Below are positions 17,723 through 58,913 of a stretch of 64,000 bases of DNA, one piece after another. Source of the DNA: Aquipseudomonas alcaligenes MRY13-0052 (GTDB lineage Bacteria; Pseudomonadota; Gammaproteobacteria; Pseudomonadales; Pseudomonadaceae); NCBI GenBank assembly GCA_000474255.1, contig BATO01000031.1, positions 1 through 64,000 of the forward strand, given 5' to 3'. The notes below the pieces were generated by a model. The model saw nothing but the letters and a program-made list of their open reading frames with translations. It ran no database searches and had not been told where the DNA came from. The translations under genes and the position numbers were made by a program. How positions within the stretch are numbered: the first letter of the stretch is position 1; each line of letters begins with the position of its first letter.

Positions 17723-17787
17723 CTCTAAATCGAATCAATAGCCGCAATTTTATTCCATCAGGAGATATCAATAGCGCTGAACGATAT

Positions 17788-17799
17788 TGGTATATACCA
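17788..17799. promoter_or_regulatory. GntR/HutC-type operator TGGTATATACCA
   Basis: This 12-bp perfect palindrome lies in an AT-rich stretch 74 bp before the first gene of the PnuC operon. It has the form TGGT-N4-ACCA bound by UTRA-type GntR regulators (PhnF and NagR/DasR sites are one or two bases different, from memory). A UTRA-type GntR gene sits in the same operon (24565-25359), so autoregulation is likely. Confidence 0.65.
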
Positions 17800-17872
17800 G
17801 GGCGCCGCCCGTTAAATCCGCCCCCACAGGCCCAGTGGGCAATGCGGAGCACGATGGCTGATCGCTGTACGG

Positions 17873-18778
17873 GTGATGCTGGAATATTTTCATCCCTGGC
17901 CGAATTCGGCGGGTTTCTATGTGGCACGGGAACGTGGCTGGTACCGCGACGCCGGGCTCGATGTGCAGTTGCAGGTACCGGACCCCTATCGCGGCGACAC
18001 CCTCGAACACCTGCTGCAAGGCGCCGCCGATCTCGGCGTGTTCCCCAGCAACCGCCTGCTGGTGCGCCGCGCACTCGGCCAGCCGCTGCTGGGCGTGGCG
18101 GCCATCAACCATGCCGGCCTGGAATCCATCCAGACCCTGACCGACTTCGGCATCCAGCGCCCCCGCGACCTGGCCGGCAAGCGCCTGGCGCTCAACCCCA
18201 CCCCGCGCGGCCTGGCCATGGTGCGCCACCTGGTGGCCGCCGACGGTGGCGACCCGGACGCGGTGATCATCGTCGACAGCCAGGTGCGCGAACTGCGCCC
18301 CGAGCAGCTGGCCGCCGGTATCGCCGACGCCAGCTTCGGCGGCTACTGGGCCTGGGAAGCGCTGATGGGCAGCCCCATCCCCGCCGAGCGCCGCGTGGTC
18401 TGGCCGGTGGACGCGATCGGCGCGCCGCGCTACCACAGCTACCTGCTCGGCGGCCGCCAGGACTGGTTCGAGCACAACCCCGACAGCGCCCGCGCCTTCC
18501 TCGCCGCCACCGAGCGCGGCTTCCGTGCCGTGGCGGCCGACCCGCAAAGCGCCCTGCCCGCCTACGAGGCGGCCATCCCCTACTTCCCCACCGAGCTGCT
18601 CAGCCAGTCCCTGGAGCGCATCGCCCCCACCTGGTTGCACGCCGGCCATTGGGGCCAGCAGCGGGAGGAACTGCTCGCCCCTTACGCCCACTGGCTGCAC
18701 AGCCACGGTGTGCTCGCCGACGCGGACGCCTGGCGCGGCGCCACCAGCAACCGGTACCTGACGGAGCAACGGCCGTGA
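17873..18778 (+). CDS. NMT1/THI5-like substrate-binding protein without signal peptide
   Basis: The roughly 300-aa protein has the periplasmic-binding fold of the NMT1/THI5/SsuA type (FHPWPNSAGFYVARERGWYRDAGLDV at the very start, shown as domain onset). The fold begins at residue 2 and there is no signal peptide. Upstream in-frame sequence to the stop at 17813 has no hydrophobic stretch. It may act in the cytoplasm, as THI5-type HMP-P synthases do, or have lost export. The THI5 cysteine-rich motif is absent. The start is uncertain (GTG 17873 or ATG 17876; weak RBS). Its stop overlaps the next gene (GTGA). Confidence 0.75.
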   Translation: MMLEYFHPWPNSAGFYVARERGWYRDAGLDVQLQVPDPYRGDTLEHLLQGAADLGVFPSNRLLVRRALGQPLLGVAAINHAGLESIQTLTDFGIQRPRDLAGKRLALNPTPRGLAMVRHLVAADGGDPDAVIIVDSQVRELRPEQLAAGIADASFGGYWAWEALMGSPIPAERRVVWPVDAIGAPRYHSYLLGGRQDWFEHNPDSARAFLAATERGFRAVAADPQSALPAYEAAIPYFPTELLSQSLERIAPTWLHAGHWGQQREELLAPYAHWLHSHGVLADADAWRGATSNRYLTEQRP

Positions 18779-19929
18779 CCCAGCCGATACGCATCGCCCA
18801 CGGCATGGGCGCGCAGCCGGTGGAGGCCGACTGGCCGGCCCTGCAGCAACGGGATGTGGAGCAGGTGCTGCAACGCTTCCCGCAGCTGGGCGCCGTGCAG
18901 CAGCTCGGCTGGCACAGCCCCCGGCCCTTCTCGGCCGCCGCCCAGGTGCACACCGATCACGGCGAGGTGTTCGTCAAGCGCCACCACCGCCGCGTGCGCG
19001 AACCGGCCTGGCTGGAGGAGGAACACCGCTTCGTCCGCCACCTGCAGGACCGCGGCGCACCGGTCACCCCCGCCCTGCGTGACCGCGACGGGCACAGCGC
19101 GCTGGCCCTGGGCGAGTGGACCTACGAAGTGCTGCCCCGCGCCGCCGGTGACGACCTCTACCGCGAGGCCCTGTCCTGGACGCCCTTCCTCGACCGCCAC
19201 CACGCCCATTCGGCGGGCGCCGCCCTGGCCCGGCTGCACTGTGCCGCAGAAGGCTTCGACGCCGCCCCCCGGCAGGCGCCGGTGCTGTTGGCCAACCTGC
19301 GCTTGTTCAGCCAGCCCGACCCGCTGCGGGCCATCGAGCAGGCCCTGCCCGGGCAACCGGCCCTGGCCCGCTACCTGGCCGGGCACGACTGGCACTACGC
19401 GCTGAAAGAACTGCACCTGCCCTACCACCGCCAACTGCTGCCGCTGCTGGCCGCACAACCGGCGCTCTGGACCCACAACGACTGGCACGCCTCCAACCTG
19501 CTGTGGCGCGGGCAAGGTGGCTCGGCGGAGGTTGAGAGCGTCCTTGATTTCGGCCTGAGCGACCGGACCTTCGCCCTGTTCGACCTGGCAACGGCATTGG
19601 AACGCAATTGCATTCCCTGGCTGGAACTGGATGATGGCGGCCGCGCAACGGCCGATCTCGATGCGGTCGACGCACTGCTGGCGGGCTACGCCAGCCAGCG
19701 CCCCCTCGGCCGCCACGACCTGCTCACGCTCAAGGCCCTGCTGCCCCTGGTGCACGCCGACTTCGCCCTCAACGAAGTCGACTACTTCGAGGGCATCGTC
19801 GGCTCGCGGGCCAGCGCCGACATCGCCTACCACGCGTTCCTGATCGGCCACGCCCGCTGGTTCGGCGACAGCGAGGGCGCCCGCCTGCTCGACCACCTCG
19901 CGCGGCTCGCCCGCACCCATAACAACTAG
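18775..19929 (+). CDS. APH-family small-molecule kinase
   Basis: This 384-aa protein is an aminoglycoside-phosphotransferase/choline-kinase-like enzyme. The catalytic loop is WTHNDWHASNLLW (HxD and Asn) and the metal-binding motif is SVLDFGLSDR. The family includes thiamine, choline and homoserine kinases. It starts at GTG 18775 (GGAG upstream), overlapping the previous stop by 4 bp. In this operon it could trap an imported alcohol or nucleoside by phosphorylation. Thiamine or a thiamine precursor is a reasonable guess from the neighbours, not shown by sequence. Confidence 0.83.
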   Translation: MTQPIRIAHGMGAQPVEADWPALQQRDVEQVLQRFPQLGAVQQLGWHSPRPFSAAAQVHTDHGEVFVKRHHRRVREPAWLEEEHRFVRHLQDRGAPVTPALRDRDGHSALALGEWTYEVLPRAAGDDLYREALSWTPFLDRHHAHSAGAALARLHCAAEGFDAAPRQAPVLLANLRLFSQPDPLRAIEQALPGQPALARYLAGHDWHYALKELHLPYHRQLLPLLAAQPALWTHNDWHASNLLWRGQGGSAEVESVLDFGLSDRTFALFDLATALERNCIPWLELDDGGRATADLDAVDALLAGYASQRPLGRHDLLTLKALLPLVHADFALNEVDYFEGIVGSRASADIAYHAFLIGHARWFGDSEGARLLDHLARLARTHNN

Positions 19930-19939
19930 GAAGACCGCC

Positions 19940-20829
19940 ATGCCCCCGCTTCACGCTGCCACCCTCGTCTCGCCCCAGGCCCTGCACCAGGCCCTGCAGG
20001 CGCCCGGCCTGCTGCTGCTCGATGCCAGCGTGGAACTGGCCGCCGCGCAGTTCGACGGCGACTACCGGGTGGCCAGCGGGCACGCGGCCTGGCAGGCCGA
20101 ACACATCCCCGGCGCCCGCCACGCCGATCTGCTGCATGACCTGGCGGACCCGGAGGCGGGCTTCAGCTTCGCCCTGCCAACGCCCTCGGCCTTGCAGGTG
20201 CCCCTGGCACGCCTGGGCCTCGGCGCCGCCCGGGAGATCGTGCTCTACGACCGCCACGACGGCTTCTGGGCCGCGCGCCTGTGGTGGATGCTGCGCAGCC
20301 TCGGCATCGCCGCCCGTGTGCTGGATGGTGGCCTCAAGGCCTGGCGGCACGCCGGCCTGCCCCTCGCCTCGGGTGACCAACCCGCTGCTGTCGACACCGC
20401 GCCCCTGGCACCGCTGCAGGCCCGGGCGGGCTTCTGGGCCAACCGCCAGGAGGTGCTCGCCGTGGTCGAGGGCCGCGCCCCCGGCACCCTGGTCTGCGCC
20501 CTCTCCGCCGGCCTGTTCGACGGCAGCGCGGTGACCCGCTACGCCCGTCGCGGGCGCATTCCGGGCAGCCTCAACAGCCCGGCCCGCAGCCTCTTCGACG
20601 AACAGGGCCGCTACCTGCCGCCCGCTGAACTGGCCCAGGCGCTGGGCGCCCGCTGCTCGATGGCGGGCAGCCGCTGATTCTTTATTGCGGCGGCGGTATT
20701 TCCGCCGCTGCCACCGCCCTGGCGCTGACCCTGCTGGGCCGCCAACAGGTCTCGATCTACGACGGCTCGCTGCAGGAATGGGCGGCCGATCCAGCCTTGC
20801 CAATGTCCACCGGAGCAGCTCCGGCCTGA
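19940..20829 (+). pseudogene. Two-domain rhodanese sulfurtransferase, frameshifted
   Basis: The gene encodes tandem rhodanese domains as in SseA-type thiosulfate/3-mercaptopyruvate sulfurtransferases. Frame 1 runs from 19940 to a stop at 20677. The missing end, PLLDGGQPLILYCGGGISAA and on to the stop at 20827-20829, continues in another frame from about 20650. A single missing base near the CCC at 20649-20651 explains the shift. The frameshift separates the catalytic cysteine loop (YCGGGISAA) from the rest, so as read the product is inactive. It is either a real mutation or a homopolymer error. It lies 10 bp after the kinase gene. Confidence 0.85.
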
Positions 20830-20939
20830 GATTCAACCCTCTTCTTTCGTCTTTCAGCAGTAGGCACGCCAGCGCCGCCCGCCGGGCCCTCCCGTCGCGC
20901 GGTTCACTCAGCAGCCGGCGTCCATCAAGGAGTTCGTTC

Positions 20940-23108
20940 ATGGTCCCTTCCCTGTTCCTGCAGCACCGCCACGGCTTCGCACTGGCGCTCCTGGCCCTGT
21001 CACTGAGCCCGTCCCTGGCCCAGGCCGCCGACACCGTCACCCTGGATGCCGTCACCGTGCACGGCGACGAGGGCGACGGCTACCAGGCGAAAAGCGCCTC
21101 GGTGGGCGGCTTCGACGACGCCCCACTGCTGGATACCCCCGCCTCCGTCTCGGTGTTCACCGAGCAACTGATCAAGGACCGCCAGGCCAAGCTGCTCAGC
21201 GAAGTGCTGCGCAACGACGCCTCGGTCGGCGACAGCTACGCGCCTATCGGCTACTACGAGAACTTCGTCATCCGCGGCTTCTCCCTCAACGCCGCCAGCA
21301 GCTACAAGATCAACGGCCGCACCATCACCGGCGAGCAGAACGTCGCCCTGGAGAACAAGCAGCGGGTCGAGGTGCTCAAGGGCCTCTCCGGCCTGCAGAG
21401 CGGCGTGTCCGAGCCCGGCGGGCTGGTCAACTACGTCACCAAGCGCCCGGAAGACGTGCGCTCGGTGACCCTGGCCACCAACGAGGAAGGTGAGCGCTAC
21501 ATCGCCACCGACGTCGGCGCCTGGCTCGACGCCGAGCAGCGCTTCGGCCTGCGCGCCAACTTCGCCCACGAGGACATCCGCTCCTACGTCGACAACTCCG
21601 ACGGCACCCGCGACTTCGTCTCCCTGGCCGCCGACTGGAACATCAGCGACGCCGCCCTGCTGCAGCTGGACGCCGAATACCAGACCCGCGAACAACGCTC
21701 GGTGCCCGGCTACCAGCTGCTCGGCGGCAACGTGGTGCCCAGCGGCATCGACCCCAAGGACCGCCTCGCCGACCAGAGCTGGTCCAAGCCCGTGGGCATC
21801 GACTCGCTCAACCTCACCGGGCGCTTCGAGTACCGCTTCAACGACGTCTGGACCGGCAGCCTCAGCGCCGCCCGCAGCCGCGTGGTGATCGACGACTACA
21901 GCTCCTTCGCCTGGGGCTGCTACGGCTCCGCCAGCTGCGCCAGCTCCGCCGTGCCCAACTACTTCAGCCCGGAAGGCGACTACGACGTCTACGACTTCCG
22001 CAACCCCGGCGACACCCGCCGCAACGACGAGCTGCAGGCAGCCCTCGCCGGCCGCTTCGACAGCGGCCCGTTCAGCCATGAGCTGACCGTCGGCACCAGC
22101 GCCTTCCGCCGCCTGCTGGACCGCCGCAAATCCACCAACGAATGGGTCGGCACCGGCAACATCCATCAGCCCACGCCCGCCTTCGACCCCACCGACGTGC
22201 CCCTCGGCCACACCTACCGCCGCCTGGACAGCCGCCAGTACGGCCTGTTCGCCACCGACCGTGTGAGCTACGGCGAACACTGGCAGGCGGTGATCGGCGG
22301 GCGCCAGGTGCGCCTGGACGAAGAAGCCTTCGACAAGAACGGCGACACCACCCGCCACACCGAGCGCTGGGAGTTCCTGCCCAACGCCGCGCTGATCTAC
22401 AAGCCGCGCGCGGACATCTCCCTCTACGGCAGCTACAGCAAGGGCCTGGCCCTGGGCGGCGAAGCGCCCTGGTTCGCCACCAACGCCGACGAAATCCTCG
22501 CGCCCACCACCTCGCGCCAGCTGGAGCTGGGCATCAAGCGTGACTGGCAGCGCCTCAGCCTCACCGCCGCGCTGTTCCAGATCACCAAGGCCTACCAGTA
22601 TTCGCGCCCCAACGGCGACCAGACCTTCACCTACGTGCAGCAGGGAGAGCAGAAGAACGTCGGCCTGGAGCTGTCCGCCACCGGCTGGGTCACCGACCAC
22701 CTGCAGGTCTCGGCCAGCGCTGCGGCCATCCGCGCCCGGGTCGAAGGCACCGCCACCGCCGCCTACGAAGGCCACCAGGCGATCAACGTGCCCACCCTGC
22801 GCGCCAGCCTGCATGGCGACTACGCCATCCCCGGCGTGCCCGGCCTGGCCCTGCTCGGCGGCGTGCAATACAGCGGCAGCAAATACGCCAGCCAGGCCGG
22901 CAACGTGAAGGTGGACGACTACGCCGTGTTCGATATCGGCGGGCGCTACAGCCTGGCGATCGAGGGCTACGAAACCGTGCTGCGCCTGACCGTCGACAAC
23001 CTCTTCGACGCGCGTTACTGGCGCGATGCCGGCGAGTACATGGGCGACGGCTACCTGTTCCAGGGCGCCCCGCGCACCGCGCGGCTGTCCGCCACCGTCA
23101 ACTTCTGA
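20940..23108 (+). CDS. TonB-dependent outer-membrane receptor (siderophore-receptor type)
   Basis: This 722-aa protein has a signal peptide (LALLALSLSPSLAQAADTVT), a plug domain (about 50-170, with SVSVFTEQLIKDRQAKLLSE and VEVLKGLSGLQSGVSEPGGL), and a 22-strand barrel ending in the terminal Phe of ATVNF. The plug start and VEVLKG region match the FhuA/siderophore subgroup. The start at 20940 has AAGGAG 7 nt upstream. The operon context (phosphatase, PnuC transporter, kinase) points to a vitamin or nucleotide-like substrate rather than a siderophore; this is inference. No Fur box was recognised upstream. Confidence 0.9.
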   Translation: MVPSLFLQHRHGFALALLALSLSPSLAQAADTVTLDAVTVHGDEGDGYQAKSASVGGFDDAPLLDTPASVSVFTEQLIKDRQAKLLSEVLRNDASVGDSYAPIGYYENFVIRGFSLNAASSYKINGRTITGEQNVALENKQRVEVLKGLSGLQSGVSEPGGLVNYVTKRPEDVRSVTLATNEEGERYIATDVGAWLDAEQRFGLRANFAHEDIRSYVDNSDGTRDFVSLAADWNISDAALLQLDAEYQTREQRSVPGYQLLGGNVVPSGIDPKDRLADQSWSKPVGIDSLNLTGRFEYRFNDVWTGSLSAARSRVVIDDYSSFAWGCYGSASCASSAVPNYFSPEGDYDVYDFRNPGDTRRNDELQAALAGRFDSGPFSHELTVGTSAFRRLLDRRKSTNEWVGTGNIHQPTPAFDPTDVPLGHTYRRLDSRQYGLFATDRVSYGEHWQAVIGGRQVRLDEEAFDKNGDTTRHTERWEFLPNAALIYKPRADISLYGSYSKGLALGGEAPWFATNADEILAPTTSRQLELGIKRDWQRLSLTAALFQITKAYQYSRPNGDQTFTYVQQGEQKNVGLELSATGWVTDHLQVSASAAAIRARVEGTATAAYEGHQAINVPTLRASLHGDYAIPGVPGLALLGGVQYSGSKYASQAGNVKVDDYAVFDIGGRYSLAIEGYETVLRLTVDNLFDARYWRDAGEYMGDGYLFQGAPRTARLSATVNF

Positions 23109-23118
23109 GGAGCCCGCC

Positions 23119-23952
23119 ATGCGCATTCCCGCCCTGCCCTGCATCGCCCTGCTCGCCGCCCTGCTGGGCGGCTGCCAGCAGCACCCGCCGGCCAACGACC
23201 AGCTGGACGCGGTGCTCTGGACCCAGACCTCCATCGAGCACGACCTGCTGTTCCGCCAGGTGTACGCCAACGCCACCCGCCAGCTGGACAAGGCCCTGGC
23301 CGACCCCGCCTGGGACGCCCTCGCCGGCACCCCGCGCAACCTCCAGGGGCTGCCACCGGCGCTGATCGTCGACATCGACGAGACCCTGCTGGACAACGTG
23401 CCGCTGAACGCCCGTGCCATCCTCGCCGACGCCCCCTACGACTACGCCCAGTGGTACCAGTGGGTGGACCGTGCCGAAGCCCCAGCCCTGCCCGGTGCCT
23501 TGGCCTTCATGCAGGCGGCGGCCCAGCGCGGCATCACCCCCTACTACCTGACCAACCGCGAGCCCGGGCAGGAGCAGGCCACCCTGGCCAACCTCCGGCG
23601 CGCCGGCTTCCCCATCGACGGCACCGCGCAGATCCTCACCGCCGGCACCGCCATCGGCGGCTGCGCCGACGCGGGTTCGGACAAGACCTGCCGGCTCAAC
23701 TGGGTCGGCAGCCAGGCCCGCGTACTGATGCTGGTGGGCGACAGCTTCGGCGACTTCATCAGTGCCAAGGGCAGCCAGGCCGAGCAGCAGCAAGCCGCCG
23801 CGCCCTACCTCGGCTGGCTCGGCGAGCGCTGGTTCCTGCTGCCCAACCCCACCTACGGCCATTGGTACAGCGCCCCCTACCAGGGCCGCGAAGACCTGCC
23901 GGACGCCCAGAAGCGCGCCCTCAAGCACCAGGCGCTGAAACCGCAGTACTGA
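23119..23952 (+). CDS. Lipoprotein HAD acid phosphatase (e(P4)/class C type)
   Basis: The 277-aa protein has a lipoprotein signal with lipobox LLGGC (Cys19) and the DDDD-phosphatase motif I as DIDET (Asp85, Asp87). Other conserved parts are YYLTNREPGQE and LMLVGDSFGDF, typical of the Haemophilus e(P4)-like acid phosphatases that remove phosphate from NMN and other monophosphates in the periplasm. It lies 10 bp after the TonB receptor gene with GAGGAG as RBS. It could dephosphorylate the imported substrate before passage through the PnuC-type carrier. Confidence 0.9.
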   Translation: MRIPALPCIALLAALLGGCQQHPPANDQLDAVLWTQTSIEHDLLFRQVYANATRQLDKALADPAWDALAGTPRNLQGLPPALIVDIDETLLDNVPLNARAILADAPYDYAQWYQWVDRAEAPALPGALAFMQAAAQRGITPYYLTNREPGQEQATLANLRRAGFPIDGTAQILTAGTAIGGCADAGSDKTCRLNWVGSQARVLMLVGDSFGDFISAKGSQAEQQQAAAPYLGWLGERWFLLPNPTYGHWYSAPYQGREDLPDAQKRALKHQALKPQY

Positions 23953-23971
23953 ACCCGCCGAGGCCATCGCC

Positions 23972-24568
23972 ATGTCAACGCTGGAAATCGTCGCCGTGCT
24001 CATCAACATCCTCGGCGTCTGGCTCACCGCCCAACGCATCCGCTGGTGCTGGCCGGTGAGCGTCGTCGCGGTGCTGCTCTACGCCTGGATCTTCTTCGGC
24101 GTGAAGCTCTACTCCGACATGCTCCTGCAACTGGTCTTCGCCCTGCTGCAGGGTTACGGCTGGTGGCGCTGGAGCAGCGGCCAGAGCGTGGCCGGGAAGG
24201 TCCGCGTGGAGCGCCTGCCGCCGCGTGTGGCCCGGGTCAGCCTGCTGGCCGGCCTGCTCGGCGCGGTGCTGCTGGGCAGCCTGATGCACCACTTCACCGA
24301 CGCGGCCGTGCCCTGGGTCGACGCCCTGCTCACCGCCTTCAGCCTGGTGGCCAGCTTCTGGGCCGCGCGCAAGTACCTGGCCAGCTGGGGCCTGTGGATC
24401 GTGCTGGATATCGCCTACGTCGGCCTGTTCCTCTACAAGGACCTGCAGCTCACCGCGGCGCTCTATGCCGGCTTCGTGATCCTCGCCGCCTACGGCCTGC
24501 ACGCCTGGCGCAAGGACCTGGACGCCCAGGACCGCGCCCTGCCCCAGGCCGCCGGGGCCACCTCGTGA
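23972..24568 (+). CDS. PnuC-family vitamin transporter
   Basis: This 198-aa inner-membrane protein has seven hydrophobic segments and PnuC-family hallmarks: start region EIVAVLINILGVWLTAQRIR, the aromatic motif GYGWWRW, and a late WIVLDIAYVGLFLYKDLQLT segment. PnuC proteins are facilitators for unphosphorylated vitamins (nicotinamide riboside, thiamine, riboflavin) and depend on an intracellular kinase for trapping. The kinase and periplasmic phosphatase in this operon fit that mode. Which vitamin is carried cannot be read from the sequence. The stop overlaps the regulator start (GTGA). Confidence 0.88.
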   Translation: MSTLEIVAVLINILGVWLTAQRIRWCWPVSVVAVLLYAWIFFGVKLYSDMLLQLVFALLQGYGWWRWSSGQSVAGKVRVERLPPRVARVSLLAGLLGAVLLGSLMHHFTDAAVPWVDALLTAFSLVASFWAARKYLASWGLWIVLDIAYVGLFLYKDLQLTAALYAGFVILAAYGLHAWRKDLDAQDRALPQAAGATS

Positions 24569-25359
24569 ACCTCAACCCGGCGCGGCCCTCGTTCGTCAGC
24601 GAATCCCAGCCCCCGGGTGCCTGGCGCGCCTCGCTGCCGCACTACCTGCGCATCCGCGACCAGCTGGTGGCCGACCTCGCCGCCGGCCTCCTACCCGGCG
24701 ACAGCAAGCTACCGGCGGAGCGCGAGCTGGCCGAGCGCTTCGCCTGCACCCGCGTCACCCTGCGCCAGGCCCTGCAGCTGCTGGAGCGCGACGGCCTGAT
24801 CTACCGGCAGAACCGCCGTGGCTGGTACGTCAGCCCGCCGCGCATCCGCTACGACCCCACCGGCATCATCGGCTTCATGGAATACGTCGCCCGCCAGGGC
24901 CGCGAGCCGCGCACCGAATGCCTGCACGCCGAGCGCCGCCCGGCCGGTGCCTGGCTGGCCAAGCGCATGGGCCTGGAGCACCCCGAGGAGCCGGTGTTCG
25001 TCCTCCAGCGGCGGCGCTGGGTCGACCAGCGCCCGGTGCTGCTGGAATGCAACGTGGTGCTGGTGGACTGGTGCCCGGAACTGCTCTCCGCCGACCTCGA
25101 CACCTCGTTGACCACCCTGCTGCGCGAGCGCTTCGGCCGGGTGCAATCACGCAGCGAACTGCTGATGCACGCCGAAACCATGAACGAGGCCCAGGCCGGC
25201 CTGCTGCAGGTATCCCCGGGCTCCAGCAGCTTCTACCTGGAACGGCTCAACTTCGGCGAGCAGGGCCAACCGGTGGAGTTCGACCAGGAGTTCTGGCGCC
25301 CGGACGCCCTCGCCGTGGTGCTGGAAACCCGCTACCCGGGGAAGCCGGCCCAGCCATGA
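24565..25359 (+). CDS. GntR family regulator with UTRA ligand domain
   Basis: The 264-aa protein has an N-terminal GntR winged helix (about 25-95, KLPAERELAERFACTRVTLR) and a C-terminal UTRA effector domain (about 110-255), the HutC/PhnF subfamily. The start is GTG at 24565, overlapping the pnuC stop; the end overlaps the HAD gene by 4 bp (ATGA). The palindrome TGGTATATACCA before the operon (17788-17799) matches the operator style of this subfamily. The regulator probably represses its own operon and responds to a phosphorylated or amino-substituted metabolite. Confidence 0.88.
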   Translation: MNLNPARPSFVSESQPPGAWRASLPHYLRIRDQLVADLAAGLLPGDSKLPAERELAERFACTRVTLRQALQLLERDGLIYRQNRRGWYVSPPRIRYDPTGIIGFMEYVARQGREPRTECLHAERRPAGAWLAKRMGLEHPEEPVFVLQRRRWVDQRPVLLECNVVLVDWCPELLSADLDTSLTTLLRERFGRVQSRSELLMHAETMNEAQAGLLQVSPGSSSFYLERLNFGEQGQPVEFDQEFWRPDALAVVLETRYPGKPAQP

Positions 25360-25997
25360 GCCCGCTCGACGCACTGCTGCAGCGCGCCGAAGGCTTGATC
25401 TTCGATTGCGACGGCACCCTGGTGGACAGCCTGCCGCTGTATGCCAGCGCCTGGAATGCCGGCTTCGCCGCGTGCGGCAAGGCCATGGACCCGGCCTGGC
25501 ACGCCGCACGCTGCGGGCTCTCCGAAGCACTGCTGATGGACGCCTTCGAGCACGAACACGGCGTGACGCTGCACCGCGAACAGGTCTCGGCACGCATGCG
25601 CCAGCACTACCTGGCCCACCTGGACACGCACCTGCGGGAAATCACCCCGATCACCGCCATCGCCCGCCGCTTCGCCGGGCTCAAGCCCATGGCGGTGGCC
25701 TCCAGCGGCTCGCGGGCCATCGTCACCCGCTCCCTGGCCGCCCTGGGCCTGGCGCCGCTGTTCGACGCCGTCGTCACCCTCGACGATACCGGCCAGGCCA
25801 AGCCCCACCCGGCCATCCACCTGGAGGCGGCCCGCCGCCTCGGCCTGCCGCCACAACGCTGCCTGGTATTCGAAGACAGCGTCCAGGGCATCGAGGCCGC
25901 CCTGCGCGGCGGCCTGCCGGTGGTGGATGTGCTGCCGTTGATCGGCTCGGGCTACAAAGGATCGACGCACTTCTCAGACGCACCACTCGCCCTCTGA
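25356..25997 (+). CDS. HAD-superfamily phosphatase (beta-PGM/YqaB-like)
   Basis: This 213-aa cytoplasmic enzyme has the four HAD motifs: DCDGTLVDS (I), VASSGS (II), KPHP (III) and FEDSVQG (IV), with a helical cap after motif I. It resembles sugar-phosphate phosphatases such as YqaB and phosphoglycolate phosphatase-like enzymes. It starts by a 4-bp overlap with the gntR stop, so it is the last gene of the PnuC operon. It may remove phosphate from an intermediate or recycle a dead-end product. It converges on the permease gene, with 17 bp between stops. Confidence 0.87.
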   Translation: MSPLDALLQRAEGLIFDCDGTLVDSLPLYASAWNAGFAACGKAMDPAWHAARCGLSEALLMDAFEHEHGVTLHREQVSARMRQHYLAHLDTHLREITPITAIARRFAGLKPMAVASSGSRAIVTRSLAALGLAPLFDAVVTLDDTGQAKPHPAIHLEAARRLGLPPQRCLVFEDSVQGIEAALRGGLPVVDVLPLIGSGYKGSTHFSDAPLAL

Positions 25998-27778: not shown

Positions 27779-28252
27779 TTGATCAATTTGGATGCCACCG
27801 ACCTGCGCATTCTTCAGGCTCTGCAATACGACGGGCGCATCAGCAACCAGGACCTGGCCGAGAAGGTCGCGCTCTCGCCGTCGGCTTGCCTGCGTGTCTG
27901 CGGCTACTGGAGGAGGAAGGCATCATCAGTGGATACCGCGCGGAACTGAACGCCGAACGATTGGGTGTCGAGTTCGAGGCGATCGTCCATGTGTCGTTGC
28001 GCCAGGACCAGGACGACTGGCACGAGACCTTCATCAAGCGCGTGCAGGAGTGGCCCGAGGTGGTTTCCGGCTATGTCGTCACGGGCGTCAGCAACTATGT
28101 GCTGCGGGTCCAGGCGCGGAACCTCAAGCACTTTTCCGACTTCGTGGTGACACGCTGAACCGCACCGCAGGCATCACCGACATCCGCTCGGAGATCGTGC
28201 TGCAGCGAATCAAGGACAGTCATACCCTGCTCGACCTGATGCTCAGGAAGTG
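27779..28252 (+). pseudogene. Lrp/AsnC family regulator with two frameshifts
   Basis: The conceptual protein (about 157 aa) begins at TTG 27779 with LDATDLRILQALQYDGRISN, a typical Lrp helix-turn-helix start, with GAAGGA 8 nt upstream. After SPSACLR (about 27896) the frame changes to LLEEEGIISGYRAELNAERL, and after FSDFVV (about 28150) it changes again to TLNRTAGITDIRSEIVLQ and the stop at 28252. Each shift equals one missing base. The first falls in the family's usual CLRRVRLLE segment. The gene is non-functional as read. It is divergent from the porin remnant and permease and overlaps the antR end by 10 bp. Confidence 0.85.
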
Positions 28253-29247
28253 AAGGAAGCCTTGCCGCGCGCCAGGCTCTGCGAGGGCTGTTCGCCAAAG
28301 GCCTGCTGATAATCGCTGGCGAACCGGCCCAGGTGGGTAAAACCCCAACGGGTGGCCGTGGCGGCAACCGTGTAGACACCGCGCTCCTCCAGCAGATCGC
28401 GACGCACGCCGTTCAGGCGCAAGCGCTTCAGATAACCCAGCGGCGACACCCCGAACCGGCGCTTGAAGCCCTCATGCAGCCGCTGTGGCGATACACCGGC
28501 TACCGCCTGGATCTCCATCAGGGTCAGCTCATTCTGGGCATTGCGCTCGATGAACTCGCGAGCCTTGCCCACGTATGCCGGGCAACGGGGCTCACCGACC
28601 TGGGCCAGTGCAGCGGAATAGTTATTGGGTTGCGACAGAAGCAGGCCCTTGATCAGGCTGCTCTCCAGGTCGCGGGCCAACAGCAACTGACTGGTGATCG
28701 GGCTGGCCTGCTCCAGCTCATCGGCCAGGTAACGCACCATTCGCCACCAGCCGGCGGTCGCCCCCTGCTCGGCATCGACGCGGGCATCGAAATGCACCGG
28801 TGCTTCGACCGGCTGCTGCAGCAAGTGCTCGAGCACCTGCTGCATCGATTGGCAAGGAATCACCACCTGCAGCTTGCGGCAGTCAGCGGCGATGGTCAGG
28901 CGTTGCTGCTCACGGGGGCAAACGATGATCCCGGTCTGGGTATCGGAACCATGCACCTGCCGGCCCTGACGGATTTCCTGCTCGCCATCCAGCGGCAGGC
29001 TGATGCTGTAGCTGGCAAACCCCTCGCGCGCCTCCACGCCTATCACCACCTCGGTGCCGTAGTGGATGCGCCCGATAACGGTGGACAGCGGCCCCAGCCG
29101 ACTGGCGGCATGCTCGAAGGCCAAGGGGTGCTCGGCACTCACCGACAGGCTGTGGGGGCCGGCGATCGCCGTCATCCAATCACGGGCACCGCCGATGTCG
29201 CGCAGGCTGGCTTTGAGTCCCGAAGCACAGGGGTGAGAAAACGGCAT
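28243..29247 (-). CDS. antR: AraC/XylS-type activator, probable AntR
   Basis: This 334-aa protein has an N-terminal AraC-binding-like (cupin_6) sensor domain (about 40-200) and a C-terminal AraC domain with IQAVAGVSPQRLHEGFKRRF and ATATRWGFTHLGRFASDYQQ. It belongs to the XylS/BenR/AntR type of aromatic-acid-responsive activators. The start at 29247 has GAGGAA 7 nt upstream. It is divergent from antA, 182 bp away, the usual arrangement for an anthranilate-responsive activator. The name rests on context; direct identity to characterised AntR was not measured. Confidence 0.82.
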   Translation of the reverse strand: MPFSHPCASGLKASLRDIGGARDWMTAIAGPHSLSVSAEHPLAFEHAASRLGPLSTVIGRIHYGTEVVIGVEAREGFASYSISLPLDGEQEIRQGRQVHGSDTQTGIIVCPREQQRLTIAADCRKLQVVIPCQSMQQVLEHLLQQPVEAPVHFDARVDAEQGATAGWWRMVRYLADELEQASPITSQLLLARDLESSLIKGLLLSQPNNYSAALAQVGEPRCPAYVGKAREFIERNAQNELTLMEIQAVAGVSPQRLHEGFKRRFGVSPLGYLKRLRLNGVRRDLLEERGVYTVAATATRWGFTHLGRFASDYQQAFGEQPSQSLARGKASFTS

Positions 29248-29352
29248 AGTCAGTTCCTCAAGGCAGAGCGGCTTATCGTTGTTATGCCGCAAAGCATAGG
29301 GCGGCCGGGCGCTCTTTCGCCATAGGCGCCACGAAAACCGGCCAGGGTTGGA

Positions 29353-29366
29353 TGCAAAAGCGGATA
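29353..29366 (+). promoter_or_regulatory. XylS/AntR-like half-site TGCA-N5-GGATA
   Basis: The site TGCAAAAGCGGATA lies 64 bp upstream of antA. XylS-type regulators bind TGCA-N6-GGNTA; this copy is one base shorter in the spacer. A possible -10 element TAATTC lies at 29390-29395. A clear second half-site at 21 bp was not found. Confidence 0.5.
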
Positions 29367-29429
29367 GAAGCCGGGACAGGGGCTGGGTCTAATTCGGTGG
29401 CATCGGCCCACAACAACAAGGTACGCCTG

Positions 29430-30824
29430 ATGACCTCCCGATCCCCCGCTCAATGGCAACGTTTCGTCGAAGGGTGCCTGGACTTCCGCCCCGTGGAAGG
29501 CATTTACCGCATCGCCCGCGACATGTTTACCGAACCCGAACTGTTCGACCTCGAGATGGAACTGATCTTCGAGAAGAACTGGATCTACGCCTGCCACGAA
29601 AGCGAAATCGCCAAGCCCCATGACTTCGTCACGATCCGCGCGGGCCGCCAGCCGCTGATCATCACCCGCGACGGCGAAGGCCGGCTCAATGCCCTCATCA
29701 ACGCTTGCCAGCATCGCGGCACCACCCTCACCCGGGTCATGAAGGGCAACCAGAGCACCTTCACCTGCCCCTTTCATGCCTGGTGCTACAAAAGCGACGG
29801 GCGCCTGGTCAAGGTCAAGGCGCCGGGGGAATACCCGGCCGACTTCGACAAGGCCAGCCGCGGCCTGAAGAAGGCACGCATCGAAAGCTACAAAGGCTTC
29901 GTGTTCGTCAGCCTCGACACCGAAGGTGTCGACAGCCTCGAGAGCTACCTGGGCGATGCCAAGGTGTTCTTCGACATGATGACCGCCCAATCCCCCACCG
30001 GTGAGCTGGAAGTGTTGCCTGGCCGCAGCAGCTACACCTACGAGGGCAACTGGAAGCTGCAGAACGAAAACGGCCTCGACGGCTATCACGTCAGCACCGT
30101 GCACTACAACTACGTGGCCACCGTGCAGCACCGGCAGCAAGTCAACGCCGAAAAAGGACACGCCGCTGGCGACACCCTCGACTACAGCAAGCTCGGCGCC
30201 GGAGACAGCGCCACCGACGACGGCTGGTTCGCCTTCGACAACGGCCACAGCGTGCTCTTCAGCGAAATGCCCAACCCCTCGGTACGCCCCGGCTACGCGA
30301 GCATCATGCCGCGCCTGGTGGAGGAATACGGCCAAGGCCGCGCCGAATGGATGATGCACCGCCTGCGCAACCTCAACGTCTACCCGAGCATGTTCTTCAT
30401 CGACCAGATCAGCTCGCAGCTGCGCATCGTCCGCCCCCTGGCCTGGAACAAGACCGAGGTTCATAGCTTCTGCCTGGGCGTGAAAGGCGAATCCGACGCC
30501 GACCGGGAAAACCGCATCCGCCAGTTCGAGGACTTCTTCAACGTCTCCGGCATGGGCACACCGGATGACCTCGTGGAGTTCCGCGAAGCCCAGCGTGGCT
30601 TCCAGGCGCGCCTGGAACGCTGGAGCGACATCTCCCGGGGCGCGGGTCACTGGGTCGAAGGGGCGACGCCCAACAGCGAGGCGCTGGGGATAGCCCCGGT
30701 GCTGACCGGCATCGAATTCACCCACGAAGGGCTCTACGTGAATCAACATGGAGCCTGGCAGCGTTTTCTACTCGACGGACTGGCCCGCAAGGCCGCCGCG
30801 CTCATCGATGTGCAGGAGCTCTGA
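29430..30824 (+). CDS. antA: Anthranilate 1,2-dioxygenase large subunit
   Basis: The 464-aa alpha subunit is the usual AntA length. It catalyses dioxygenation of anthranilate to catechol with loss of CO2 and ammonia. The Rieske 2Fe-2S ligands are C93, H95, C113 and H116 (NACQHRG and TCPFHAW). The mononuclear-iron segment is NGLDGYHVSTVHYN. The sequence agrees closely, from memory, with P. aeruginosa AntA through the Rieske and C-terminal parts (GTPDDLVEFREAQRGFQARL). The start at 29430 gives MTSRSPAQWQRF. antB follows after 3 bp. Confidence 0.93.
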   Translation: MTSRSPAQWQRFVEGCLDFRPVEGIYRIARDMFTEPELFDLEMELIFEKNWIYACHESEIAKPHDFVTIRAGRQPLIITRDGEGRLNALINACQHRGTTLTRVMKGNQSTFTCPFHAWCYKSDGRLVKVKAPGEYPADFDKASRGLKKARIESYKGFVFVSLDTEGVDSLESYLGDAKVFFDMMTAQSPTGELEVLPGRSSYTYEGNWKLQNENGLDGYHVSTVHYNYVATVQHRQQVNAEKGHAAGDTLDYSKLGAGDSATDDGWFAFDNGHSVLFSEMPNPSVRPGYASIMPRLVEEYGQGRAEWMMHRLRNLNVYPSMFFIDQISSQLRIVRPLAWNKTEVHSFCLGVKGESDADRENRIRQFEDFFNVSGMGTPDDLVEFREAQRGFQARLERWSDISRGAGHWVEGATPNSEALGIAPVLTGIEFTHEGLYVNQHGAWQRFLLDGLARKAAALIDVQEL

Positions 30825-30827
30825 ATC

Positions 30828-31319
30828 ATGAATGCCGAGCTTCAATACCGGGTCGAACAATTCCTCTTCAACAAGGCCGCCTTGTGCGACGCCCAGGACT
30901 GGGACCGCTACCTGGCACTGTTCAGCGAAGACAGCGAATTCCACCTGCCACAGTGGGACTCGGAGCACGTGTACACCACTGATCCGAAAACCAGCATGTC
31001 GCTGATCTACTACGCCAACCGCGGCGGCCTGGAAGACCGGGTGTTCCGCCTGCGCACCGGCAAGGCCGCCTCGGCCACGCCCATGCCGCGCACCCTGCAC
31101 CAGGTCGGCAACGTCCGTATCAGCGCACTCGCCAACGGGGATCTCGAGGTCAAGGCGAACTGGCACACCCTGTTCCACCGCCTCGCCAGCACCGACCAGT
31201 TCTACGGCCACGCCACCTACCATCTGCGCCCCCATGGCGACAGCTGGCTGATCAGCCGCAAGCATGTGCTGCTGCTCAACGACACCATCAACTCGGTGCT
31301 GGATTTCTACCACCTCTGA
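30828..31319 (+). CDS. antB: Anthranilate 1,2-dioxygenase small subunit
   Basis: The 163-aa beta subunit has the usual AntB length and the NTF2-like ring-hydroxylating beta fold. It starts NAELQYRVEQFLFNKAALCD and ends SWLISRKHVLLLNDTINSVL. It has a structural role in the alpha3beta3 dioxygenase and no catalytic residues of its own. The gene starts 3 bp after antA with GGAG upstream, and antC begins 19 bp after its stop. Confidence 0.93.
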   Translation: MNAELQYRVEQFLFNKAALCDAQDWDRYLALFSEDSEFHLPQWDSEHVYTTDPKTSMSLIYYANRGGLEDRVFRLRTGKAASATPMPRTLHQVGNVRISALANGDLEVKANWHTLFHRLASTDQFYGHATYHLRPHGDSWLISRKHVLLLNDTINSVLDFYHL

Positions 31320-31338
31320 CTGCACGAGACTCCAGGTC

Positions 31339-32358
31339 ATGACACACAAGGTTGCCTTCAGCTTCGCCGACGGCAAGACCCTGTTCTGCCCCGTGCAGAA
31401 CGATGAAATCCTCCTCGACGCCGCTTTGCGCGCCGGCATCAAGATCCCCCTGGATTGCCGTGAAGGCGTCTGTGGCACCTGCCAGGGCCGCTGCGAAAGC
31501 GGCCGCTATACCCAGGACTATGTAGATGACGAAGCCCTGAGCCCGGCCGACCTGGCCCAGGGCCGAATGCTCACCTGCCAGACCCGCGTGCACTCCGATG
31601 CCAGGTTCTATTTCGACTTCGACTCCAGCGTCTGCCATGCCGCTGGCCCCGAATGCATCACGGCCACTGTGCGCGAGGTCGTGCAGGTCTCCGACAGCAC
31701 GGCACTGCTGTGGCTCGATGCCAGCCAGTTACCCCGCCAGCTGGACTTCCTCCCTGGGCAGTACGCACGCATGCGGGTGCCGGGCACCGACACCTGGCGG
31801 GCGTACTCCTTCGCCAACCGACCTGGCGCTAGCAACCAGCTGCAGTTCCTCGTGCGGCTGCTGCCCGATGGGGTGATGAGCCGCTACCTGCGCGAGCGCT
31901 GGCAGCCCGGCGACATCCTCGAGCTCGAAGCGCCCCTGGGCAGTTTCTACCTGCGCCAACTGGAGCGCCCCGTGGTAATGGCGGCGGGCGGCACCGGGCT
32001 TTCGGCCTTCCTCGGGATGCTCGACGACATGGCGGAGAGCGGCCCCCATGGGCAACCGGTCACGCTGTTCTACGGGGTCAACCAGGAGGCCGACCTGTGC
32101 GAGCTGGAGCGCCTGGCCAGCTATCACCAACGCATCCCGGGGTTCACCCTGCATACGGTGGTCAACCAGCCCGGCGAGGCCTGGAGCGGCAAGCGGGGCT
32201 ATATCCCCGAGCACCTGGATGTTCCCCTCGAGCCCGAGCAGAACTTCGACCTCTATGTGTGCGGGCCGCCTCCAATGGTCGACGCAATCAAGCAATGGGC
32301 CACCGACCATTGCGTCACCGGAGCTCGGATATTCGCCGAAAAATTCATAGGCAGTTGA
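31339..32358 (+). CDS. antC: Anthranilate 1,2-dioxygenase electron-transfer component
   Basis: This 339-aa reductase passes electrons from NADH to the AntAB oxygenase. The N-terminal 2Fe-2S ferredoxin domain uses C40, C45, C48 and C80 (DCREGVCGTC then LTCQ). It is followed by an FAD domain (RAYSFANRPG) and an NAD domain (VMAAGGTGLSAFLG and YVCGPPPMVD). This order, ferredoxin first, is that of BenC/AntC. The start at 31339 places the ferredoxin fold at residue 3. Confidence 0.93.
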   Translation: MTHKVAFSFADGKTLFCPVQNDEILLDAALRAGIKIPLDCREGVCGTCQGRCESGRYTQDYVDDEALSPADLAQGRMLTCQTRVHSDARFYFDFDSSVCHAAGPECITATVREVVQVSDSTALLWLDASQLPRQLDFLPGQYARMRVPGTDTWRAYSFANRPGASNQLQFLVRLLPDGVMSRYLRERWQPGDILELEAPLGSFYLRQLERPVVMAAGGTGLSAFLGMLDDMAESGPHGQPVTLFYGVNQEADLCELERLASYHQRIPGFTLHTVVNQPGEAWSGKRGYIPEHLDVPLEPEQNFDLYVCGPPPMVDAIKQWATDHCVTGARIFAEKFIGS

Positions 32359-57236: not shown

Positions 57237-58331
57237 TCAGGCCACCGCCCTCTCCGCGCGCTTCTCTTCCTCCAGCTCGCGCACCAGCGGCAGCACATGC
57301 TGGCCGAAGTACTCCACTTCCTCCTGGAAGTGCAGGAAGCCGGAGAGGATCAGGTCCACGCCCACGGCCTTGAGGGCGACGATGCGTTCGGCGATCTGCC
57401 GGGGCGTGCCGATGAGGTTGGTCTTGAAGCCGTCGTTGTATTGCACCAGGTCCTCGAAGCTGGACTTGGCCCAGTTGCCTTCACCCTCGGGGCTGGCGGC
57501 GCCGGCGTTCTTCACTTCGGCGCCGAAGGCGTTGACCGCGTCCGGGTTGGCCTTGTCGATGATTTCCTGCAGCACCGCGCGGGCTTCTGCCTCGGTGTCG
57601 CGGGCGATGATGAAGGCGTTGACCCCGACCTTGACCGAATGGCCGTTGGCCGCCGCCTTGGCGCGGATGTCGTCGACCTGCGCCTTGATGCCTTCCACGC
57701 TGTTGCCGTTGGTGAAGTACCAGTCCGACACGCGCGAGGCCATGTCGCGGGCGGCCCGCGAGCTGCCGCCCTGGAAGATTTCCGGGTGCGGCTGCTGCAG
57801 CGGCTTGGGCTTCAGGCTGTAGTTGCGCAAGCGGTAGAAGTCGCCGTTGAAGGTGAAGTCGTCCTGGGTCCAGATGCCCTTGAGGGCGCGGATGAATTCC
57901 TCCGAGCGGCGGTAGCGCTCGTCATGGTCCAGCCAGGGTTCGCCGATGGCGTGGAATTCGCCACGGAACCAGCCGGACACCACGTTGATGGCGATGCGGC
58001 CGTTGCTGAGGTGGTCGATGGTGGCCAGCTGCTTGGCCGCCAGCACCGGGTTCCACGGGCCGGGCAGGATGGCGGCGATCACCTTGAGGCGCTCGGTTAC
58101 GGCCAGCAGCGCGTGGCTGATGGCCACCGATTCGTGCTGGTTCTCCGCGCCGTAGCCGGCGGTGAAGCGGATCTGCGACAGGGCGTAGTCGAAGCCCGCG
58201 CGCTCGGCGATCTGCGCCAGCTTGCGGTTGTAGTCGGCGTCCCAGCTGGTGCGCTGTTCGATGTTGCTGACCACCAGGCCACCACTGACGTTGGGCACCC
58301 AGTAGGCGAAGCGGATCGGTTGCTGGCTCAT
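57237..58331 (-). CDS. sfnG: FMNH2-dependent dimethyl sulfone monooxygenase
   Basis: The 364-aa class-C flavin monooxygenase oxidises dimethyl sulfone to methanesulfinate as a sulfur source. It has the bacterial-luciferase-like fold with FAYWVPNVSGGLVVSNIEQR at the N-terminus, a start typical of SfnG, and NVVSGWFRGEFHAIGEPWLD, the alkanesulfonate-monooxygenase-like flavin region. It depends on a separate reductase for FMNH2; the gene directly upstream (58359-58913) encodes one, 27 bp away. No SfnR-type sigma-54 regulator is in the window. Confidence 0.9.
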   Translation of the reverse strand: MSQQPIRFAYWVPNVSGGLVVSNIEQRTSWDADYNRKLAQIAERAGFDYALSQIRFTAGYGAENQHESVAISHALLAVTERLKVIAAILPGPWNPVLAAKQLATIDHLSNGRIAINVVSGWFRGEFHAIGEPWLDHDERYRRSEEFIRALKGIWTQDDFTFNGDFYRLRNYSLKPKPLQQPHPEIFQGGSSRAARDMASRVSDWYFTNGNSVEGIKAQVDDIRAKAAANGHSVKVGVNAFIIARDTEAEARAVLQEIIDKANPDAVNAFGAEVKNAGAASPEGEGNWAKSSFEDLVQYNDGFKTNLIGTPRQIAERIVALKAVGVDLILSGFLHFQEEVEYFGQHVLPLVRELEEEKRAERAVA

Positions 58332-58358
58332 GGCATTGACTCCTCGGGGCTTGGGATT

Positions 58359-58913
58359 TCAGGCGGCGCGATCGGCCGCATGGTGGAAGAAGGCGAGCAC
58401 CGGCTCCAGCGCCCGCTCGATGCGTTCGAACTGGGCGGGGTCGGTGAGTTGGTGATCGGTGAAGGCCTCGGTGGTGGCGTAGAGGCCATAGGGCAAGGTG
58501 TGCGCCTGGAAGAAGGCGAACAGCGGGCGCAGCTGGTGGTCGATCACCAGGGCGTGGCGCTCGCCCCCGCCGGTGGCGGCCAGCAACACCGGCACGCCCT
58601 TGAGGGCCTGGTAGTCCACCAGGTCGAACAGGTGCTTGAACAAGCCGGTGTAGGAGGCGCGGTAGACGGGGCTGCCGGCGATGATCAGCTCGGCGTTCTC
58701 GATGGCCTGCAGGTGCGGCAGCAGAGCCGGTGAGGCCGTGTCGCGCTCCAGCGAGCCGGCCAATCCCCCGGCGATATCGGCGACGCGTATCCAGTGCACC
58801 TCGATGGCCAGGCGCGCCTGCAGGCGCTCCACCAGGGCCTGCAGCAACCCATGGGTGCGCGACGGGTTGCGCAGGCTGCCCGAGACCACCACCACTCTTA
58901 TCGTTCGACTCAT
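58359..58913 (-). CDS. NAD(P)H-dependent FMN reductase (MsuE/SsuE type)
   Basis: This 184-aa flavodoxin-like protein supplies FMNH2 to SfnG. The phosphate-binding start is [20 protein letters not shown], and [20 protein letters not shown] is the conserved flavin-interacting segment of SsuE/MsuE proteins. It is the first gene of a two-gene operon with sfnG. Upstream is a leader with two strong hairpins and then a tandem repeat array. Confidence 0.9.

Follow-up and report, generated by a model that had tools for sequence, protein, structure and literature searches.

The window analysed here, 64,000 nucleotides of contig BATO01000031.1 from Aquipseudomonas alcaligenes MRY13-0052 (GCA_000474255.1; a 6.9-Mb draft genome in 237 contigs), carries eight co-directional genes on the + strand (17,858–25,997), which we call orfA to orfH. 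An earlier note, made from the sequence of the window, had described them as a PnuC-centred operon for salvage of a phosphorylated vitamin under a GntR/UTRA operator. We computed gene content, conservation, predicted fold, the conserved operator sequence and the exchange of uptake modules between related loci, and propose that the cluster probably imports thiamine, which is then processed in the cell by orfA and orfC, a pair that moves between distant bacteria. Searches with Pfam and NCBIfam models assigned the genes as follows.

17787..17800, no strand assigned: palindromic operator TTGGTATATACCAG, predicted site of the GntR/UTRA regulator orfG
17858..18778, +: orfA, cytosolic NMT1/THI5-fold protein without signal peptide (PF09084, 1.2e-53)
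18775..19929, +: orfB, APH-family kinase (PF01636, 3.1e-20), predicted to phosphorylate the imported compound
19940..20829, +: orfC, double rhodanese, 3-mercaptopyruvate-sulfurtransferase-like (PF00581); frameshifted at 20648, first frame ends at 20677
20940..23108, +: orfD, TonB-dependent outer-membrane receptor of siderophore-receptor type (TIGR01783, 434 bits)
23119..23952, +: orfE, lipoprotein acid phosphatase, e(P4)-like HAD IIIB, an optional member (e(P4) model below cut-off)
23972..24568, +: orfF, PnuC-family inner-membrane carrier (PF04973 and PnuC model)
24565..25359, +: orfG, GntR/UTRA regulator (nearest NCBIfam model PhnR, below cut-off)
25356..25997, +: orfH, HAD hydrolase, beta-phosphoglucomutase-like; among the family genomes, in the same species only

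Operon organisation and control

The eight-gene layout of the earlier note was recovered, as were the six functions it had named (receptor, lipoprotein phosphatase, PnuC, APH kinase, GntR regulator and HAD phosphatase); orfA and orfC had gone unnamed. Its description of overlaps or 10–20 bp gaps holds for orfA/orfB, orfF/orfG and orfG/orfH, each overlapping by 4 bp, and for orfB–orfC (10 bp), orfD–orfE (10 bp) and orfE–orfF (19 bp), but not for orfC and orfD, which lie about 110 bp apart. The siderophore-type assignment of the receptor stands, orfD exceeding the cut-off of TIGR01783 (223.5 bits) by a wide margin. Lower scores were obtained for orfE, which reaches 153 against a cut-off of 216 for the e(P4)-type lipoprotein phosphatase model, and for orfC, whose best NCBIfam match, the PRK11493 3-mercaptopyruvate sulfurtransferase (MST), is below cut-off. 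The orfB kinase has no significant relative in the PDB (best E value 0.08).

Upstream of orfA lies the perfect palindrome TTGGTATATACCAG (17,787–17,800), which bears out the operator proposed in the earlier note: a match is found 79–113 bp upstream of orfA in 30/30 Gram-negative loci of this type, exact in 25, with one mismatch in three and with two in the remaining two, and the arms TTGGT and ACCA are always kept. A UTRA regulator gene was seen in 27 of these 30 loci, the stretches of the other three being cut or ending early. Within the genome, TTGGTATATACCA occurs exactly once, at the operator site; when up to two mismatches are allowed it has 26 matches, against 10 for a reversed control pattern. 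The 11 Actinobacterial loci and the Acetobacter locus lack the palindrome upstream of orfA (best 5–7 mismatches), a weak comparison since orfA sits inside its cluster there. A conserved palindrome preceding the operon that encodes the regulator follows the pattern of HutC/GntR-UTRA operons, whose operators have a HutC-type consensus, and orfG is the candidate to bind it. Neither the window nor the 27 orfA loci scanned gave a thiamine pyrophosphate (TPP) riboswitch, and the same scan detected one at the thiC locus of this genome. A promoter scan found no promoter.

Over the operon the window genome is 99.6% identical to another genome of the same species; the only indel that falls within the operon is the loss of one base at 20,648, which breaks the orfC frame in the second rhodanese domain. 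This gene is intact in 16/16 relatives examined. Comparison among relatives places the conserved N-terminus of orfA, which has no signal peptide, at 17858; the start codon common to relatives, retained in the same-species genome, is altered here, and GTG at 17873 and ATG at 17876 come next. The frameshift and the altered start reflect either decay of the operon in this strain or errors in the draft.

A constant orfA–orfC pair with exchangeable uptake modules

A search with the PnuC protein gave matches in 95 of 148 genomes of the same family, 18 of which, the window genome included, hold a copy of at least 70% identity. At the 17 loci other than that of the window, orfB and orfF are always present, orfA, orfC, orfD and orfG occur in 16/17, orfE in 5/17 and orfH in one, from the same species. 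Rather than the scattered context that the earlier note had named as counting against its reading, gene order is preserved in 16 of the 17. When the search did not start from PnuC, orfA was found in 17/148 family genomes, and orfC-type proteins (at least 63% identity and 347 bits) occur in these same 17 genomes and in none of the others; the next-best orfC-like proteins among the 148 reach at most 40% identity and 121 bits.

More widely, named genomes were scanned with an alignment of orfA, which returned at least 31 loci, the matches listed including Pseudomonas, Xanthomonas, Acinetobacter, Acetobacter, Actinoplanes, Acrocarpospora, Mycobacterium and Leifsonia. Added to the 16 family loci that bear orfA, these give a total of 47 loci, 42 of them distinct after the removal of L038, L040, L041, L044 and L046, five pairs having been judged by length to be one and the same contig. 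The set was collected through orfA, which is therefore constant by construction; orfC is present in 41 of the 42, partial at a contig end in L091 and missing in L093. In a Leifsonia locus (L094, 10846–11313), a cupin gene can be recognised by eye after orfC. Wider searches for orfA, in which the best few candidates were scored per genome, returned the genome of the window alone from 321 genomes of its class and the centre genome alone from each of two other groups of 394 and 200, and a plasmid search gave no match at 1e-30. The system thus looks rare outside Pseudomonas.

Around this pair the uptake genes are exchanged. The 31 Gram-negative loci have an APH kinase throughout, PnuC in 29 (the other two are cut by the contig end) and an orfD-type receptor in 30 (missing in Acetobacter), with the periplasmic phosphatase in 11, one at just 26% identity, and the HAD phosphatase orfH in one. 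Among the 11 Actinobacterial loci, seven have an ATP-binding cassette (ABC) importer and four an energy-coupling factor (ECF) importer, and ten carry a P-loop kinase of PRK06547 type (L091 is cut). A kinase from one or other of these two families is hence present in 41/42 loci, the remaining one being cut. The binding protein of L090 matches 4nmy, the thiamin-bound protein of Clostridioides difficile, at 1.5e-96, and the sole match of the L094 S-component is YkoE, a putative 4-amino-5-hydroxymethyl-2-methylpyrimidine (HMP)/thiamine permease, at 4e-28; the remaining ABC and ECF loci were classified by similarity to these two.

The constant pair is thus orfA–orfC, and PnuC is replaceable and not the centre of the operon. 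Of the PnuC-centred salvage put forward earlier, the uptake logic survives and the central place of PnuC does not. Similarly, dephosphorylation, import and re-phosphorylation form a coherent route, but a phosphorylated external substrate is not general, because the periplasmic phosphatase (11/31) and the HAD phosphatase (1/31) are optional. Between the two substrates suggested in the earlier note, a thiamine phosphate fits better than a nucleotide, given that the Actinobacterial importers beside orfA–orfC are of thiamin ABC or YkoE-type ECF type. The replacement importers and the predicted structure of orfA (see below) both point to thiamine or its pyrimidine; we consider a thiamine-type ligand likely and regard the ligand of import as fairly well supported.

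Part of the loci also include a flavin mononucleotide (FMN) monooxygenase. Genes of the NtaA/DmoA family stand between PnuC and the GntR gene in L071, L073 and L074, the products of the first two being 73–74% identical to an Actinoplanes copy, and inside the cluster in L086, L088, L090, L093 and L097. A luciferase-like match was found in the fetched stretches of 18/42 distinct orfA loci versus 0/13 other loci, a contrast that is soft because the 18 include three loci from which queries were taken, the controls all belong to the family of the window, and Actinobacterial genomes hold dozens of such genes; in the Gram-negative loci alone the count is 12/31. The PDB relatives of the L090 monooxygenase are DmoA (481 bits), LadA, a hexachlorobenzene dehalogenase and riboflavin lyase (289 bits). 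In a Mycobacterium locus (L092, 10826–13712), orfA–orfC is followed by SfnG-like monooxygenase, SfnB/DszC-like and SsuE-like FMN-reductase genes. Dimethylsulfone-monooxygenase-like and FMN-reductase-like genes were also recognised by eye in the window itself, about 31 kb from the operon (57237–58913, − strand), and served as queries only. Downstream of the operon, an AraC-type regulator and a Rieske ring-hydroxylating dioxygenase cluster can be seen by eye (28243–32358).

Predicted chemistry and competing explanations

Structure prediction for orfA gave a poor model from a 9-row alignment (predicted local distance difference test, pLDDT, 42.7) and a confident one from a 23-row alignment that includes exported solute-binding proteins (pLDDT 92.5). 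The nearest structures to the latter are the thiamin-bound protein 4nmy, a protein binding N-formyl-4-amino-5-aminomethyl-2-methylpyrimidine (FAMP), and THI5. The best PDB matches of orfC are MSTs, and the motif YCGGGISA is present in 40/40 readable copies from the 42 loci (L091 is cut and L093 lacks the gene). In human MST, Arg188 and Arg197 hold 3-mercaptopyruvate, according to PMC12926118. When these positions were located in the alignment from the distance of nine between them, that of Arg197 proved to be retained, and that of Arg188 is taken by another residue in all 40 copies read, which argues for an MST-like enzyme whose donor site has changed. In the breakdown of thiamine, 5-hydroxy-3-mercapto-2-pentanone is an intermediate, as stated in PMC6270652. 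This compound is an alpha-mercaptoketone like 3-mercaptopyruvate, minus the carboxylate, and the other half from thiamine hydrolysis, a FAMP-type pyrimidine, is bound by a close relative of orfA. The pairing of orfA with orfC would make chemical sense on a thiamine breakdown route.

From these data we infer the ligand of PnuC and the kinase as well as the two chemical steps of orfA and orfC. Thiamine, or its phosphates dephosphorylated where orfE exists, would cross the outer membrane via orfD and the inner membrane via PnuC (orfF), and phosphorylation by orfB would trap it. Phosphorylated thiamine would then be bound by orfA, which would open and cleave the thiazolium half to yield a FAMP-type pyrimidine and an alpha-mercaptoketone (5-hydroxy-3-mercapto-2-pentanone phosphate); orfC would accept the sulfur of the latter as an enzyme persulfide. 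The linked DmoA/RcaE-related FMN monooxygenase would act in addition in some bacteria. We favour this full import-and-breakdown mechanism, in which the operon is a GntR-controlled thiamine utilisation locus, over the alternatives below, but it is tentative and somewhat less likely than not. A broader proposal, which we advance with still more reserve, is that these may be the first genes known for the catabolism of thiamine in bacteria, in which orfA opens the thiazolium of thiamine phosphate, a re-purposed orfC takes the mercaptoketone sulfur, and the pair crosses phyla and docks onto whichever thiamine importer and kinase are available. Among the papers listed by searches of open-licence PMC, judged by title and abstract opening, no description of the gene set or of a genetic pathway for thiamine catabolism was found.

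If true, this would give a first genetic handle on bacterial thiamine breakdown; a cytosolic binding-protein fold next to THI5 might gain an enzymatic role, the sulfurtransferases might gain a new donor, and such sinks would affect vitamin B1 turnover in soil and water. Thiamine catabolism, or a thiamine conversion of another kind, becomes directly testable through a gene pair that is found with thiamine-type importers across Pseudomonas, Acinetobacter, Xanthomonas, Acetobacter and Actinobacteria.

Several points weigh against a thiamine breakdown pathway. To our knowledge, no biochemical result exists for any member of the operon, and orfA could be a binding protein rather than an enzyme. The family locus L048 (8216–9991, genome G114) consists of kinase and PnuC only, with neither orfA, orfC, receptor nor regulator and with no Rfam match; the uptake pair can thus stand alone. 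An Actinoplanes locus (L093, 9001–12177), unique among the 42, holds orfA, a PNPOx-like gene, a kinase and a monooxygenase and has no orfC. In most Pseudomonas copies the monooxygenase is not within the operon. The carrier orfF scores 71.6 with the NCBIfam model for nicotinamide riboside PnuC, above the cut-off of 42.45, and in two relatives (L053, L055) counterparts of a second PnuC of this genome, 55% identical to orfF, adjoin a kinase that is NadR-like by eye. Finally, two of the 16 carriers tested (seven family genomes and nine reached via the loci) lack ThiC, and one of them also lacks ThiG.

The last point bears on the explanation that thiamine or its phosphates are imported and trapped as a cofactor precursor, with orfA as a cytosolic carrier or store and orfC as an accessory, supplying for example sulfur to build thiazole or to repair damaged thiamine. 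Thiamine-type importers in two of the three uptake types, the near-universal kinase and the placement of orfA among thiamin- and FAMP-binding proteins all agree with it, and vitamin supply could matter in some carriers because of the missing ThiC and ThiG; Leifsonia G471, which lacks both, is the only one of those tested to look auxotrophic for both thiamine halves. However, ThiC is found in 14/16 carriers and ThiG in 15/16, so that most tested carriers can probably make thiamine, and these counts, taken with the missing TPP riboswitches, render "salvage" a doubtful term. GntR-type control and the rare, patchy distribution (1/321 genomes of the class, that of the window) also suit a scavenging system better. 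Overall we judge vitamin supply somewhat unlikely. The TenA family does not discriminate (14/16 carriers versus 7/14 control genomes).

Distinctly less likely is that a modified thiamine or pyrimidine, such as degraded or oxidised thiamine or a bacimethrin- or methoxythiamine-like antivitamin, is salvaged or detoxified, with orfA and orfC turning it into a usable form. The relationship of orfA to a FAMP-binding protein and the FMN monooxygenases in part of the loci would suit this, but no particular analogue is indicated, and neither ylmB nor tenA was recognised in the few annotated neighbours, where no dedicated search was made.

Salvage of nicotinamide riboside or a nucleoside, following the PnuC annotation and leaving orfA and orfC to act on something else, draws on the cut-off passed by orfF and the NadR-like neighbours of its nearest paralog noted above. 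It is hard to reconcile with the replacement of PnuC by thiamine-type importers beside the same orfA–orfC pair and with the lack of a NadR-type kinase among the operon families, and we regard it as quite improbable. The window genome (G000) encodes two further PnuC paralogs (C131 and C199; L049 and L050; 55% and 39% identical); by eye, their counterparts in some relatives (L053 and L055; L056) lie beside kinase or NadR-like genes, so that they are possibly nicotinamide riboside carriers. Scavenging of sulfur from another heterocycle by a Dsz-like route, with a DszB-like orfA and a DszA-like monooxygenase, is very improbable.

Relation to known systems

With respect to uptake, the operon resembles the thiamine loci of Bacteroides and others that consist of a TonB receptor, PnuT and a kinase: here too a TonB receptor, a PnuC-family carrier and a kinase share one operon. 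It differs from them in having a GntR operator with no TPP riboswitch found, an APH kinase, and the added orfA and orfC. In paenibacilli, importers of the ThiXYZ and YkoC-F types are controlled by TPP riboswitches, as given in PMC5627462.

The NMT1/THI5 fold and the cytosolic location of orfA are common to the HMP phosphate synthases of the THI5 type (yeast Thi5 and Candida albicans Thi5), but their active-site residues are not matched. In a profile alignment, THI5 K62 and H66 correspond to orfA F56 and R60, and the CCCFC stretch to Y186-H187-S188-Y189; F56, R60 and Y186-H187-S188 are invariant or nearly so in 14 orfA copies. We take K62 and CCCFC to be active-site elements of THI5, and H66 is, by its entry title, the residue mutated in structure 4esw. 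The setting of orfA, linked to a sulfurtransferase and an importer, is likewise unlike that of THI5. In structure and sequence its best relatives are the FAMP/HMP-binding ThiY and the thiamin-bound solute-binding protein 4nmy. Both belong to ABC importers, whereas orfA has no signal peptide and the window operon no ABC genes; where a locus has an ABC system, it encodes a separate solute-binding protein besides orfA, unlike the ThiXYZ-type arrangement.

A vitamin-processing cluster with a monooxygenase, RcaE, is known from riboflavin catabolism (its make-up in part after PMC12746152). The likeness lies in the FMN monooxygenase of some loci here, the PDB relatives of which include riboflavin lyase; in the present clusters, this enzyme is optional and closer to DmoA. 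We know of no counterpart to orfA and orfC in the riboflavin cluster. With MSTs (SseA and human MST), orfC shares the double rhodanese architecture, the active-site Cys and an uncharged loop, its CGGGISA being close to the CGSGVTA of MST, and it is set apart from them by the sequence of that loop, by the Arg188 position and by its operon setting.

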